Below are positions 29,861 through 46,972 of a stretch of 64,000 nt of DNA, one piece after another. Made by a program: the position numbers and the translations under genes. The notes beneath the pieces are model-generated. The model was given only the letters and a program-made list of their open reading frames with translations, searched no databases and had not been told where the DNA came from. The DNA is taken from the NCBI RefSeq assembly GCF_041222825.1, contig NZ_CP139482.1, forward strand, positions 3,076,001 through 3,140,000. Direction: 5' to 3'. Source of the stretch: Candidatus Thalassolituus haligoni (lineage in GTDB: Bacteria; Pseudomonadota; Gammaproteobacteria; Pseudomonadales; Oceanobacteraceae). Each line of letters starts with the position of its first letter. Position 1 is the first letter of the stretch.

Positions 29861-30217
29861 GGGGATGATCTGGATTCGACGTTGATTACAAAGCTAGTGG
29901 TGCATGCCGAGAGGGTAAGACGATCTCGTAAATCAACGTTTTACATTTATATAGTCGCAAACGACGAAAACTACGCACTAGCTGCTTAATTGCAGCTTAC
30001 CTCTGAACCCCGGTGCCTATAACAGGGGGACGAGGGCTAAGCCCTATAGGATCGCTTGGATGCTTCGCTCGGAGTTGAAGAGCTAAACCGAATCGAGCTC
30101 GTTCTGAACGCCCTGCCCCTCGGGCCGTGACGAACTAAATTAATAGAGACGGCTAAGCATGTAGATCTCCTAGTGGAGGATTGGCGGACGCGGGTTCAAA
30201 TCCCGCCATCTCCACCA
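29861..30217 (+). ncRNA. ssrA: Transfer-messenger RNA (tmRNA)
   Basis: 357 bases. The 5' end GGGGATGATCTGGATTCGACG and the 3' end GGTTCAAATCCCGCCATCTCCACCA form the tRNA-Ala-like half (CCA encoded at 30215-30217). After TATAGTC the tag frame is GCA AAC GAC GAA AAC TAC GCA CTA GCT GCT TAA (29957-29989), giving ANDENYALAA. The TTCGGGC-type and other pseudoknot-like stems follow. With SmpB it frees stalled ribosomes and tags the peptide for ClpXP, and here FtsH, degradation. Encoded directly after smpB. Confidence 0.97.
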
Positions 30218-40740: not shown

Positions 40741-42252
40741 ATGGCTACAGATTCACGCATGCTCTGCACGGCACTCCGCAATCGACTGATGTCTGCCGCA
40801 GACGCCGCCGCCCTGATACCCGCTGGCAGCACCGTCGGCATGAGCGGCTTTACCGGCGCGGGATACCCGAAAGCCATTCCCGCCGCTCTGGCCGAACGTA
40901 TTGAACAATTGAACAACGCTGGAGAAGAGTTTCGAATCAACGTTTGGACCGGTGCCTCTACCGCCCCGGAACTGGACGGCAAACTCGCCGCCGTCAACGG
41001 CATCAATATGCGTTTGCCTTTTCAGTCGGATCCGATCTGCCGCGAGAAAATCAATAACGGCAGTATGGACTACATCGACATTCACCTGTCCGAAGTGTCC
41101 CAGTACGCCTGGTCCGGCTTTCTCGGCAAAATGAACATTGCAGTGATAGAAGTCAGTGGCGTTCTTGAAGATGGCCGCCTGATTCCGTCATCAGCCGTTG
41201 GCAACAACAAGACCTGGATAGAACAGGCAGATCAGGTGATTCTGGAAGTCAACAGCGCCCAGAGTGCCGGTCTCGAAGGCATGCACGATATTTATTACGG
41301 CACCGCCCTGCCGCCACATCGTAAACCGATTATGATCAGCCAGCCCACCGACCGTATCGGCGAACACTACCTCCATTGTCCGGCAGACAAGATCATTGCA
41401 ATTGTCGAAACCAGTGCCCCCGACCGTAACTCGCCTTTTAATCCACCGGATGATATTTCTCGCCGTATCGCCAGTCATATTCTGCAGTTTTTTCAGCAGG
41501 AAATTGCCATTGGCCGCATGCCCAAAGAGCTGCTGCCCATACAATCCGGGGTCGGCAATATCCCCAACGCCGTATTGGAAGGCCTCGACGCTGGCCCCTT
41601 CAAGCAACTGAGCGCATTTACCGAAGTGATTCAGGACGGCATGTTGGCGATGCTGAAATCCGGCACACTGACAGCCGCCTCGTCGACCGCCTTTTCGCTC
41701 AGCCCCACGGCAATGGAAGAATTGAATACCAACATCGATTTCTACCGCCAGCGTATTATCTTGCGACAGCAAGATATCAGTAACCACCCGGAACTGATTC
41801 GACGCTTGGGAGTGATCGCCATGAATGGTCTGATCGAAGCCGATATCTACGGCAACGTCAATTCGACCCATATTATGGGCAGCCGCATGATGAACGGCAT
41901 CGGTGGATCTGGCGACTTCGCCCGTAACGGCTACCTGTCGATTTTTGTAACGCCGTCCACCGCCAAACATGGCGCGATATCCGCCATTGTCCCGATGGTC
42001 TCTCACGTCGATCACACTGAACACGACGTCAAAATTCTGGTCACGGAGCATGGGCTAGCGGATCTGCGTGGTCTGTCACCCAAACAACGGGCGCACCAGA
42101 TTATCCAGAAGTGTGCCGACCCGGCATTCCGTCCGGCATTGATGGACTACTTTGAACGGGCCTGCGCCAGCGGACGCGGGATGCACACTCCGCACTTACT
42201 CGGTGAGGCACTGAGCTGGCACCAACGTTACGAAACCACTGGACACATGTAA
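40741..42252 (+). CDS. Acetyl-CoA hydrolase/succinyl-CoA:acetate CoA-transferase family protein
   Basis: 503 residues from ATG 40741. It belongs to the class I CoA-transferase family that includes AarC, ScpC and Ach1: two related domains with GSTVGMSGFTGAGYPKAIPAAL near the N-terminus, SGVGNIPNAVLEGL, the catalytic-glutamate segment LSAFTEVIQDGMLAML (about residues 285-300), GNVNSTHIMGSRMMNGIGGSGDFARN and VTEHGLADLRGLSPKQRA. Such enzymes move CoA between succinyl-CoA and acetate (or propionate), or hydrolyse acetyl-CoA. The next gene, opposite in direction, is the phosphoketolase-like protein, so acetate units may link them. Confidence 0.9.
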   Translation: MATDSRMLCTALRNRLMSAADAAALIPAGSTVGMSGFTGAGYPKAIPAALAERIEQLNNAGEEFRINVWTGASTAPELDGKLAAVNGINMRLPFQSDPICREKINNGSMDYIDIHLSEVSQYAWSGFLGKMNIAVIEVSGVLEDGRLIPSSAVGNNKTWIEQADQVILEVNSAQSAGLEGMHDIYYGTALPPHRKPIMISQPTDRIGEHYLHCPADKIIAIVETSAPDRNSPFNPPDDISRRIASHILQFFQQEIAIGRMPKELLPIQSGVGNIPNAVLEGLDAGPFKQLSAFTEVIQDGMLAMLKSGTLTAASSTAFSLSPTAMEELNTNIDFYRQRIILRQQDISNHPELIRRLGVIAMNGLIEADIYGNVNSTHIMGSRMMNGIGGSGDFARNGYLSIFVTPSTAKHGAISAIVPMVSHVDHTEHDVKILVTEHGLADLRGLSPKQRAHQIIQKCADPAFRPALMDYFERACASGRGMHTPHLLGEALSWHQRYETTGHM

Positions 42253-42269
42253 GACAACCTGGACGGATG

Positions 42270-44288
42270 TCAGAACTGATGTCTGCGGGGTTGTAACGAC
42301 AGCCATTCTGCCGCAGACATCCAGCTATCTTCAGGCAAGCCAAGTGATAACGCCAACTCAACCAAACCGTGTAACCAGCTGCAGCCATTGGCCTGAGGCA
42401 TTCTTCCCGTTCTGGCTACCGGATGATTACGGAACCCCAGTACCTGACTGTGTTCGAGATGCAAGCGTCGAAAATGACCGATAAACACCTCCGGGCGCAT
42501 ATCGCACAAGACCAGCCGTTGACGCACCCGCTCCGGGAACAAACCGTCGATGATCTGGCTATCTATCTGGCAACCAGCCTCGGTAGAATCACGGGCATAA
42601 CGAAACCGCCCAGGCTCCAGTACATAAACCAGTGAATGCGGGCGCTGAAACTGTTGCAGCCGCTCACTGATCCTGAACGCCTGTTGCAACGACAGATAAC
42701 CACAGGCCACCAGCTGGATTTCTGCCGCGCAATGCCCCCGCAGACAACTAGCACCATGAGCCACCAGTTGCTCTGCCATGGTCGGCGTCAATAGTGAATC
42801 AACCCTGCCATCCGGTATCACCAGTTGCATTACCACACCCGACTCACCATAACAGGCTTTCAACGCCGCCAAGGCGGTGTTGCCATCCGGTATCAACAAA
42901 ACCCGAACCTGATCAGCACTTTGCGACAGCAAGGCTTCGGTCATCTCCGGCGCTGCAGCATCATGGCGACTGACTAAAGGTAATCCAGTCCAAGGCGCTG
43001 GTTCATCATCCAGTTTTTGCCGCCGGGCGAAGGCAACGGTCTGCAGCAATGGTTCCAACATCGCCAGGCCAGCGGATTCATCGGTCACCAGCAGATTGAT
43101 GCCCATTTGGTTGCCCAGACAGGCGTTAGCCAGTAATTCTCCCTCATGGTGGTGTAACAACGCGCCTGCCGAGCCACCAGTACGAGTGCCCAAGCGTTCA
43201 TGGCTGATGGGGAATATCGCGCTAGTCGCACCGATATGACTTGCCAGCCGTGGCCGCAATGCCGGATTGATTTCACAAATATCGGCAAAATAACGATCCA
43301 GCAACGGTAGTACCTCATGGTCGCCATGCTGCCAGTGAGGATCCGGGCGATTGACCGTTACCATAAACGGTCGCAGCGGCCGCCGTGGTTGGCGTAATAC
43401 CGCAGTTGTCACCGGCCAATCGGTCACTGCTGTGGATTCAACTGCCACCGCAGTGGCTGGCTGACAGGCCAACGCGATCAGCGGTAAACATTTCAACTCG
43501 CCCATTGATTGATGCCATTCAGCTTCTGCCTCCAGTAATGCACAGGCAATAGTGACGGGCCGGGTATCAGCCAGCGAACACGGCACCTGACTAGCGTTCG
43601 TTCCAGTTACAGGCACTTTGGTCTCACCAATCCACACCGGAATCAACACACCGCAATCCTGCCGGGACCACCAGGATAGTGTGCGCGTCAGGCGTTCCAG
43701 CTGCTCGCTGGCATCCCCATCCAACACCAGCACTGCCACTTCCCCCGGCAGTGGTTGATGAATGGCTTGTGTGACCAGCGTATCCAGCGGAGTCCTGGCA
43801 CCGACCAACTCGGGTGAGATCCAGGGGCCGGGCAAAATCTGTTGTTCGCTATCACCGGCAAATTCCTGAGCAAACCGTGCCCAACCAGCCGCCGTTAACG
43901 GATAGCGCTGTTGTCGGGAACGATTGGCAGCGCCAGTGAGTAATTGCCAGATTTCCAGAGCAGCGCCCATTCCAGGCAGTGCCGATAACCAGTCACGGCG
44001 CATACCGGTCAGATGATTTAACAACATGCCCGCAGCCACCAGCCGCATCAATACCTGCCACTGGGCCGACGAACCGGGCGCAGCCAAAAACTCCGCTTGC
44101 CGCTGCAAACCGGGAACACGGCCATCCAGGCTATCCGACAGCCGTTCAGTCATCAACAGGGCCTCAGCCACACGCGGCGTTGGGATTGAGCACCCCACTC
44201 GAACCAGTGCACGGGATAACCGGTCGACATCCGGGCTGACATTCAGATTGCCAGCCGCCTCTCTGTGTACCACTCGCTCATGCGCCAT
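42270..44288 (-). CDS. Divergent phosphoketolase-like protein, probably catalytically inactive
   Basis: 672 residues from ATG 44288 (GGAG 6 bases upstream). No motif is exact, but segment order follows phosphoketolase (XFP, about 790 residues): LPGMGAALEIWQLLTG at about 104 where XFP has its GPGHGGP loop; VLVLDGDASEQ near 187 in place of the ThDP GDGE motif, followed by CGVLIPVWIGETKVPVTG (compare GAVLPILHLNGYKIANP); EGELLANACLGNQMGI near 382 for the E-G-L-LTGRHG segment; ADQVRVLLIPDGNT near 458 for DVVRVYLPPDAN; LVLCDMRPEVFIGHF near 592 for the late FHGYPWLIHRL. The ThDP/phosphate histidines and the GDGE glutamate are missing, so I infer a pseudoenzyme or altered activity. Alternative: an unrelated ThDP-fold protein. 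Confidence 0.6.
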   Translation of the reverse strand: MAHERVVHREAAGNLNVSPDVDRLSRALVRVGCSIPTPRVAEALLMTERLSDSLDGRVPGLQRQAEFLAAPGSSAQWQVLMRLVAAGMLLNHLTGMRRDWLSALPGMGAALEIWQLLTGAANRSRQQRYPLTAAGWARFAQEFAGDSEQQILPGPWISPELVGARTPLDTLVTQAIHQPLPGEVAVLVLDGDASEQLERLTRTLSWWSRQDCGVLIPVWIGETKVPVTGTNASQVPCSLADTRPVTIACALLEAEAEWHQSMGELKCLPLIALACQPATAVAVESTAVTDWPVTTAVLRQPRRPLRPFMVTVNRPDPHWQHGDHEVLPLLDRYFADICEINPALRPRLASHIGATSAIFPISHERLGTRTGGSAGALLHHHEGELLANACLGNQMGINLLVTDESAGLAMLEPLLQTVAFARRQKLDDEPAPWTGLPLVSRHDAAAPEMTEALLSQSADQVRVLLIPDGNTALAALKACYGESGVVMQLVIPDGRVDSLLTPTMAEQLVAHGASCLRGHCAAEIQLVACGYLSLQQAFRISERLQQFQRPHSLVYVLEPGRFRYARDSTEAGCQIDSQIIDGLFPERVRQRLVLCDMRPEVFIGHFRRLHLEHSQVLGFRNHPVARTGRMPQANGCSWLHGLVELALSLGLPEDSWMSAAEWLSLQPRRHQF

Positions 44289-44542
44289 CACGCTCTCCAG
44301 ACCAATCATTGGTAGCCGTTAGGGGCATATCAACCTGTTGTAGACACAGAAAAGACGGGGCAAAAATGGTGAAAATGCAGTTTTTATGTAATCACTACAT
44401 ACTGTGATGTGAATCGATTTTTAACGCTGTCGTTTCAGGGGCAACAAGTATCAGATGCTTACGCTAGTCTAGGAGCAGCGACGATCCGGCGTATTGCCAT
44501 GAATCAACGGCCGTTGTATCAATAATCGGGATACCGCAGACA
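44289..44542. other. Intergenic region between the phosphoketolase-like gene and pnp terminator
   Basis: No open frame or RNA gene recognised. Contains the small dyad ATCAC-N8-GTGAT near 44393 and is otherwise unremarkable; it should hold the promoter of the phosphoketolase-like gene. Confidence 0.5.
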
Positions 44543-44566
44543 TAAAAAAACCGCCCGAAGGCGGTT
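44543..44566 (-). terminator. Intrinsic terminator after pnp
   Basis: Minus strand AACCGCC-TTCG-GGCGGTT followed by a T-run (7-bp stem with a TTCG tetraloop), 58 bases past the pnp stop. It marks the end of the long rimP-to-pnp group. Confidence 0.92.
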
Positions 44567-44623
44567 TCAGGGTTCAGTCAGACGGATGTCCAGGCTGAAC
44601 CGGGAGTTTTACAACAGCAGCAA

Positions 44624-46732
44624 TCAGGCTGGCTGCTCAACACCCTTCATGGTCAGCTTGACGCGACCTTTTGGATCAACGTCCATGACGTGCACGTTCA
44701 CCATCTGACCTTCTTTCAGGTAGTCGGTGACGTTTTCAACACGCTCTTCACTGATCTGAGAGATGTGCAACAGACCGTCTTTGCCTGGCAGAACGGTGAT
44801 GAAAGCACCAAAGTCGACGATTTTGCTGACCTTACCTGTGTAGGTAGTGCCCACTTCGATATCGGCAGTGATGGCTTCGATCATGCTGCGAGCCAGATCA
44901 GAAGCTTCTTTACCCGCTGCGAAGATCTTGATTTCACCGTCATCATTGATGTCGATAGAGGCACCAGATTTCTCGGTAATGTCACGGATGGTCGCACCAC
45001 CCTTGCCAATCACTTCACGAATTTTGTCGGAAGGGATCTTCATGGTGCTCATGGTCGGCGCATTTTCTGCCAACGTCGCACGCGGCTCAGCGATCACGGC
45101 ATTCATCTGACCCAGAATATTCAGACGTGCCGCCTTGGCTTTCTCCAGAGCAATCTCCATGATCTGCTCGGTGATGCCTTCGATCTTGATATCCATCTGC
45201 AAGGCAGTGATACCTTCGTCAGTACCGGCTACCTTGAAGTCCATATCACCCAGGTGATCTTCGTCACCCAGAATGTCAGTCAGGACGGCAAACTGTTCGC
45301 CCTCCTTGATCAGACCCATGGCAATACCGGCAACCGGTGCCTTGATCGGTACACCCGCGTCCATCAGTGCCAGCGATGCACCACACACAGACGCCATGGA
45401 AGAAGAACCGTTGGATTCGGTGATTTCAGACACAATACGAATGGTGTAAGGGAATTCGTCTGCTGCAGGCATCATCGCCTGGATACCACGACGGGCAAGA
45501 CGACCATGACCAATTTCGCGACGACCTGGTGTACCCAGACGGCCTGCTTCACCTACAGAATACGGAGGAAAGTTGTAATGGAACAAGAACGGATCGTCCT
45601 TGGTGCCGTGCAGGAAGTCGATCATCTGTGCATCACGGGCAGAACCCAAAGTGGTCACAACAATCGCCTGGGTTTCACCACGGGTGAACAAGGCAGAACC
45701 GTGAGTGGTGTTTAATACACCGGTCTCGATAGTCAGCGGGCGAACGGTATCGTTATCACGACCGTCAATACGAGGCTCACCATCGATAATACGTTTACGT
45801 ACCACTTCGTACTTCAGCTCGCCCATCATGTCGGCGATGTCGTCAGCGGAGAAGCCTTCTTCGCCTTCTGCTGCAGCCAGTTTCGCAACAGCACTGGCCT
45901 TGATAGCGTCCAGCTTGCCGTAACGCTCCATCTTGTCAGACGTGGTATAGGCTTCGCCAATCGCAGTCGCTGTTTCCGCTTTTACCGCTTCGTACAAAGC
46001 AACGTTCTTGGCTTCAGCAGCCCAATCCCACTTGCTGACTGCCAGCTCTTCAACCCACTCGCTGATCGCAGTGATCACCGGCTGGAAACCTTTGTGGGCA
46101 AACAGTACCGCACCCAGCATTTCATCTTCGGTCAGTTCGTCGGCTTCGGATTCCACCATCAACACGGCGTCTTTGGTACCGGCGACAATCATGTCCAGCA
46201 GTGAATCCTGTAGCTGGGTCTGGCTCGGATTGAGGATGTAGCCCTGGTCTTCAACAAAAGCAACACGGGCACCACCGATAGGACCATTAAATGGTACACC
46301 CGATACAGCCAATGCCGCAGACGTTGCGATCATGCCGCACATATCTGGATCAACGTCTTTTTCAGAAGACATGACCGTGACGATGACCTGAACTTCGTTC
46401 ATAAAACCATCGGCAAACAGCGGACGGATTGGACGGTCAATCAGACGGGAAGTCAGGGTTTCTTTTTCCGAAGGGCGGCCTTCGCGCTTCAGGTAACCGC
46501 CAGGAATACGGCCTGCGGCATACATTTTTTCCTGGTAATGAACCGACAGCGGGAAAAAATCCTGACCCGGCTTGGTTTTTTTGGCAGCGACAACAGTAGC
46601 CAGCACCTGGGTCTTGCCCATGGTAACCAGTACCGCACCATCTGCTTGACGGGCGATTCGGCCAGTTTCAAGGGTGATGGTGTCGTTACCGAGCTGGAAT
46701 GTTTTGGTATTAGCGACAGGTTTGTTGCTCAT
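44624..46732 (-). CDS. pnp: Polyribonucleotide nucleotidyltransferase (PNPase)
   Basis: 3'-5' phosphorolytic exoribonuclease, trimeric, part of the degradosome; 702 residues from ATG 46732 (family N-terminus [33 protein letters not shown]). Two RNase PH domains (about 10-140 and 315-540; the second includes [19 protein letters not shown]), a KH domain ([30 protein letters not shown], about 555-590) and an S1 domain ([34 protein letters not shown], about 622-690). The long leader can fold into a large stem (46776-46886). It follows rpsO, the conserved arrangement. Confidence 0.98.
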
Positions 46733-46775
46733 GTATTCATTATTCCTGTAAATCAAACGAAGCTGCATCACCGCC

Positions 46776-46886
46776 GGTGCTTCTAAGCATTGGCCGTTGA
46801 ACAACGAGCCAGCTTTCCAGCCCTGCTGACAGGGTTGGAATATCGGGTTCCCCGGCGGGAACCAACGACAAATGGTTAGAAGCACC
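46776..46886 (-). promoter_or_regulatory. Long stem-loop in the pnp 5' leader
   Basis: GGTGCTTCTAA (minus strand 46886-46876) pairs perfectly with TTAGAAGCACC (46786-46776), with more local pairing inside (GGTTCCC / GGGGAACC). The duplex lies 44 bases upstream of the pnp start. In E. coli, RNase III cuts a pnp leader duplex so PNPase can repress its own mRNA; this element is placed to do the same. Confidence 0.55.
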
Positions 46887-46972
46887 ACCGCGTTCTTGCG
46901 GGGCTGGCACCACAGTGATAGCAGAATTTAGAGGGAGTATAGACAGCCGCACAAGCGAGCTACAGATACAAC

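Follow-up and report, generated by a model that had tools for sequence, protein, structure and literature searches.

A probable pseudoenzyme of phosphoketolase descent in Candidatus Thalassolituus haligoni

In the 64,000-nucleotide stretch of Candidatus Thalassolituus haligoni analyzed here (contig NZ_CP139482.1, positions 3,076,001 to 3,140,000; in the following the window, numbered from its first letter), an open reading frame (ORF) of 672 codons on the minus strand (42270..44288) encodes P0001, a protein with the fold of phosphoketolase, an enzyme that splits sugars, and without the active-site residues, as judged from the ORF, its relatives, the predicted fold and a residue table. Read on the plus strand, the same stretch contains many stops. 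Pseudoenzymes are known in many enzyme families, and our search of the open-licence literature found no paper on a phosphoketolase pseudoenzyme. We consider it rather likely that P0001 is a maintained pseudoenzyme, and the analysis points to an uncharacterised phosphoketolase-like family. An earlier note on this DNA had placed the ORF exactly, without giving its strand, and had interpreted the product as a maintained phosphoketolase-like protein that has lost its catalytic motifs and perhaps serves acetyl phosphate/acetate metabolism; descent, motif loss and maintenance in Oceanobacter are supported, the link to acetyl phosphate or acetate is not.

The loss of the active site was followed with 13 residues, twelve taken from the accessible part of PMC10547157 and Glu437 from that of PMC6435721, whose numbers were placed by manual counting on the 3ai7 alignment. 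Gln321 of the PMC10547157 model, a position held by Gly or Asn among the intact relatives, was dropped; with it their score is 11 of 14. None of the 13 residues is safely kept in P0001, the sole match being a Ser in the Ser440 column within a poorly aligned stretch, and among the nine positions His64, His97, His142, Gly155, His320, Glu479, Tyr501, Asn549 and His553 listed in the accessible part of PMC10547157 not one is retained. For comparison, the true phosphoketolases of the same order (n = 8) carry the whole set, save one that is truncated before two of the positions, and twelve intact relatives (L004, L005, L009, L012, L015, L017, L023, L025, L026, L027, L028 and P0007) carry 11 of 13, differing by Q546N and H548K.

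In the alignment LPGMGAA (43959..43979, this and the following motifs on the minus strand) replaces GPGHGG(P), which is GQGHCVAA in the intact relatives, and puts Gly106 into the His97 column. PGPWISPEL (43806..43832), with Trp156 in the His142 column, stands where the intact relatives have GSHVN.HTAG or similar, and LDGDA (43710..43724) replaces the GDGE / SDGA motif for thiamine diphosphate (ThDP); the Asn of NGY / NGRR, which elsewhere follows directly, is lost as well. According to the residue table Gly383 occupies the Glu479 column (43140..43142), so that the catalytic Glu is missing, and VSRHDAAAPE (42945..42974) is a remnant of SHVWRQDHNGFSHQDP, shortened by about ten residues. LPGMGAA, LDGDA and VSRHDAAAPE had already been aligned in the earlier note, and all three proved to be correctly placed. 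The motif and residue tables comprise 27-28 rows picked from a larger alignment, from which L032 (a near copy of the window) and L024 (a locus represented by L102) were left out.

A second set consisted of 18 polar residues, chosen from the columns of alignment A4 that are invariant in 23 intact rows. Consequently, 22 loci of A4 score 18/18 by construction; outside A4 this holds for 21 of 37 loci, which gives 43 of 59 altogether, 22 of them having defined the list. The window and Parathalassolituus score 0, Oceanobacter L033 scores 1, and G366 and G400 score 2 each. P0001 no longer has the residues for binding or activating ThDP and for handling phosphate and sugar.

Single-sequence family searches with P0001 gave no match over any cut-off: Pfam XFP reached 15.7 bits (cut-off 22) at E 0.013, and XFP_N gave no match at E<=10. 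A profile of six relatives, including the intact-type P0007, matched phosphoketolases of the PDB at E 3e-8; when only the five degenerate rows made up the profile, no PDB chain was hit at E<=1. As the degenerate-only profile finds no PDB relative, it is the fold and the intact relatives that link P0001 to phosphoketolase; this relation exceeds chance, though not from the single sequence. The fold predicted by AlphaFold is a complete three-domain ThDP-enzyme fold of the phosphoketolase type, whose residues 28-672 superpose on the phosphoketolase fold at ~14% identity. Two outcomes had been named beforehand as speaking against such a likeness, namely the lack of any XFP or transketolase profile hit and a fold without the three ThDP-enzyme domains; neither occurred, since searches with the relatives reach XFP and the full phosphoketolase fold is predicted. 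The computations show that the P0001 gene arose within a family of phosphoketolase-like enzymes.

The orthologue search which the earlier note had called for was successful: copies occur in an uncultured-Oceanobacter metagenome-assembled genome (MAG; 99.9% identity), another Oceanobacter (75%) and Parathalassolituus (~40%), and the degenerate gene is an open frame in six of seven genus genomes. The copy at 99.9% identity is the ground on which the window is assigned to Oceanobacter. For the window protein and its 75%-identical Oceanobacter counterpart L033 the nonsynonymous (dN) and synonymous (dS) divergences are 0.161 and 1.94, with a dN/dS of 0.083. Furthermore, none of the 556 differences between the two creates a stop, whereas random placement gives 17.3 stops on average and never fewer than 8 (500 trials); this absence rejects free drift and does not measure the strength of constraint. 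The comparison demonstrates purifying selection on the P0001 sequence, with the synonymous sites near saturation, and its scope is the window/L033 pair, without extending to G366 and G400. Within Oceanobacter the claim that the gene is maintained rather than decaying is therefore borne out. Of the neighbour genes, scpC and those recognised as leuA, pnp, nusA and lrp type range from 0.023 to 0.031, and the sixth, C1, lies above P0001 at 0.149; a pair of intact copies from different genera (76.5% identity) gives 0.095.

Since the sequence is still under selection, P0001 probably does a non-catalytic job. Judged by its residues it would be incapable of phosphoketolase chemistry, it probably forms the phosphoketolase-type dimer, and most likely it is retained to bind either a small ligand or a partner protein, perhaps with residues ~421-600, the stretch most like the intact relatives. 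A nucleotide would be the first guess for a ligand, since an ATP-sensing site lies close to the C terminus of one phosphoketolase from a cyanobacterium (as described in the accessible part of PMC10365998) and the ancestral neighbours act on nucleotides. Sensing thus appears possible for the phosphoketolase fold, as far as that description goes.

The ancestral neighbours were deduced from loci of the intact parent family, which often carries the name 'xylulose 5-phosphate 3-epimerase' and also that of 'phosphoketolase family protein' (e.g. Bacterioplanes, Venatoribacter); a literature search brought up work on cheese lactobacilli, and no paper backing the former name was found. Among 8000 candidates scored, 3186 proteins belong to the phosphoketolase-like family at E<=1e-30, some of which may be true phosphoketolases. 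Neighbourhoods were examined for L057-L066 (intact-type, L058 being a 14-of-18 second copy of G239) and for the degenerate L067. Genes of the thymidine/AMP-phosphorylase family and beta-CASP ribonuclease (RNase)-like genes lie near the copy in L057, L059, L060, L061, L065, L066 and L067, and a ribose-phosphate diphosphokinase-like gene accompanies them in all of these except L065. This cluster thus includes an intact-type phosphoketolase-like gene in L057, L059, L060, L061 and L066, as it does without the diphosphokinase in L065, and a degenerate copy in L067. The RNase-like gene (Beta-Casp, Lactamase_B, RMMBL) stands on the opposite strand, with L066 as the exception; the phosphorylase-family gene matches PRK04350 and TIGR02645 over and AMP_phos under the cut-off, and the diphosphokinase-like gene matches PRK07199 over the cut-off. 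An acetate-kinase fragment precedes the intact-variant gene of L066 (G132) and an amino-acid-permease-like gene follows it; this variant (cf. L027, L029) is much alike across bacterial families in a 48-row tree.

A pnp homologue is found within ~7 kb of the copy in L057, L059, L061 and L062, and in the first three of these the phosphorylase-, RNase- and diphosphokinase-type genes stand between the two. In the window, P0001 follows an upstream gene on the minus strand (44624..46888), a putative pnp. The companions are absent: no phosphorylase match was obtained in the window genome, and its RNase paralogue (33%) and diphosphokinase match (29%, taken as the housekeeping enzyme) are distant. The window locus therefore resembles the ancestral arrangement minus the companions. 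The ancestor would have stood near pnp within a cluster of nucleotide-ribose genes, of which P0001 would have stayed.

In part of the genomes these neighbours suggest a phosphorolytic use of nucleotide ribose by the intact family, which may make acetyl phosphate. A literature search pairing phosphoketolase with AMP phosphorylase found no paper. The accessible part of a microoxia differential-expression table for Bradyrhizobium (PMC6515984) lists as adjacent bll3115-3117, annotated as MBL hydrolase, ribose-phosphate pyrophosphokinase and thymidine phosphorylase family; judged from these annotations, they would correspond to the ancestral cluster. The association with a phosphorylase is not general. 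Of 42 other genomes surveyed, all taken from among those that gave a match, 22 contain a close phosphorylase (E<1e-100) and 19 have an intact copy without one. We also considered that degeneration follows the loss of the phosphorylase. This fits the window's genus, where no close phosphorylase was seen in any of seven genomes (a 40-41% relative occurs in G366 and G400, and G401 gives a weak match at 27%), but elsewhere five of the six surveyed genomes with a degenerate copy (G239 with its second copy, G224, G044, G270, G071, G153) keep a close one, and the idea was rejected.

The degenerate profile finds a match in 54 of 390 genomes from this order, and by the 18-residue score the majority are intact relatives. 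In the 48-row tree, which left out the duplicates L033 and L034, nine degenerate rows form one clade (100/100, stem 1.34), next to intact copies from members of the same family of bacteria. The tree thus supports a descent of P0001 from the intact clade; the very long branches, those of G366 and G400, leave the exact placement unsure. A 56-row tree obtained by a quick method covered 55 of 59 loci and P0007, without L079 (partial contig), L104 (true phosphoketolase), L087 and L089 (both 18/18). Its 12 rows with at most 14 of 18 residues require five changes, a number that the starred branches also enforce: in the window's genus, the second copy of G239, G071+G153, G224+G044, and Marinobacter lutaoensis+G270. 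The tree by itself cannot separate gain from loss, and the changes are read as losses because the main residues are present in true phosphoketolases. Copies that retain 9-14 of the 18 are milder cases and may have altered their specificity instead of being dead. In G239, which also has an intact copy, the second one (L058 / L103) keeps 14 of 18 residues; further second copies occur in G411, G412, G413 and G417, the match of G417 containing a stop; a hetero-oligomer or a changed specificity is possible for these. In the same-species MAG G399 an intact-type copy lies on a separate contig (L074 / L079, G399:C63) and is much like L027 and L029 of other families, which may reflect contamination or horizontal transfer.

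Several points weigh against a maintained pseudoenzyme. The AlphaFold input included intact relatives, and the model is not independent of the homology. With near-saturated synonymous sites the pairwise dN/dS values are rough, P0001 exceeds five neighbour genes by a factor of 2.7 to 3.6, and a second intact pair yields no ratio (dS infinite). G401 (90% complete) has no copy; as it lacks a close ScpC too, a missing contig is possible. Finally, the G366 and G400 copies are only 30% identical on very long branches, as relaxed constraint would give, and therefore indicate a weaker constraint or a shifted function there.

Part of this evidence can be read differently. It seems unlikely that the old site was dismantled in favour of a new ThDP-free active site or pocket in the same fold. 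The constraint in Oceanobacter would fit, as would residues which the window, Oceanobacter and Parathalassolituus-type copies share and the intact copies lack, e.g. PGPWISPEL (PGPWLSPEL in G400); however, G366 has AGPWIAPDQ at the motif, a new catalytic cluster was not demonstrated and no member of known function was found. Less probable still is a relaxed relic, which lost its job with the companion genes and drifts in an open frame not yet broken. P0001 changes faster than five of six neighbour genes measured, and the extreme divergence in G366 and G400, the gap in G401 and the missing companions all agree with this explanation, but the low dN/dS, the absence of stops, the open frames across the genus and the shared motif speak against it.

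The neighbouring acetate CoA-transferase, from which an acetate role had been proposed, was confirmed by family search as a ScpC-type succinyl-CoA:acetate CoA-transferase on the plus strand (40741..42252), 17 bases from the P0001 ORF. In the window, L032 and L033 it is the convergent neighbour of P0001, and in L034, L056 and L077 one gene separates the two; the window genome has an acetate kinase, and the intact family's possible acetyl phosphate would suit a regulator or scaffold of this metabolism. We nevertheless regard this role as very unlikely: the two genes lie on opposite strands, a nuclease gene intervenes in Parathalassolituus, G366 and G400, no examined intact-copy locus has the CoA-transferase cluster and only one an acetate-kinase fragment, and the genes recurring near intact relatives act on nucleotides and RNA. 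The intervening Fan1-like VRR-NUC gene (L034:11887-13650, L056:6966-8756, L077:7379-9040) adjoins the degenerate copy in G314, G366 and G400; a partnership with it was rejected, no VRR-NUC match being found in the window genome. An assembly or gene-calling artefact, to which the empty single-sequence searches might point, is refuted by the copies in other assemblies and has a practically negligible probability.

Returning to the maintained pseudoenzyme, we propose a tentative generalization to which we give a rather low probability: nucleotide-ribose-linked phosphoketolase-like enzymes would repeatedly become pseudoenzymes (at least five times in one order), kept for a second, non-catalytic role of the fold, e.g. 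nucleotide sensing or assembly of RNA/nucleotide phosphorolysis machinery. If true, the Oceanobacter protein would present that second role in isolation, its operon partners gone. The lineage itself, in which a single active site was lost repeatedly and by degrees while nearby genomes hold intact relatives, permits tests of what the ThDP-enzyme fold does besides catalysis.

With respect to expression, the ribosome site claimed earlier was recovered as GGAGAG (44293..44298, minus), read from the sequence with a 4-base spacer to the ATG at 44288. An alternative start, ATG 44309, also present in the Oceanobacter orthologue L070, would add MIGLESV in frame (44289..44309, minus). A terminator-like hairpin (44547..44568, minus) between the pnp-like gene and P0001 recurs in the orthologous locus L033, where the upstream DNA resembles that of the window chiefly around the terminator and immediately ahead of the start; across the 64-kb window three such sites were found and 2.4 are expected by chance. 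The ScpC-type gene was not counted in the unit. Elsewhere in the window lie a tmRNA gene with the tag ANDENYALAA (29861-30217) and C1 (36257-37906, minus), a fast-changing gene with 53-67% identity to other genus members.

Compared with known systems, the nearest intact copies of the family named 'xylulose 5-phosphate 3-epimerase' are 35-38% identical to P0001, and the intact L005 is longer by 144 residues. The intact family keeps 11 of 13 phosphoketolase residues as far as the accessible sources define them, whereas P0001 keeps none of the 18 intact-clade residues, and in part of its genomes the intact gene sits among genes absent from the window genome. A true xfp, which the earlier note had suggested to look for, was not found in the window genome. 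The transketolase fold is farther from the P0001 model than that of phosphoketolase. With phosphoketolase XFP/XPK (PF09364 + PF03894; B. longum 3ai7/6lxv, S. elongatus 8ioe) P0001 has the fold and, via the intact relatives, descent in common, but it has neither a Pfam match over the cut-off nor the defining active-site residues given in the accessible sources. By fold and descent P0001 is a phosphoketolase homologue; by those defining residues it is no phosphoketolase.
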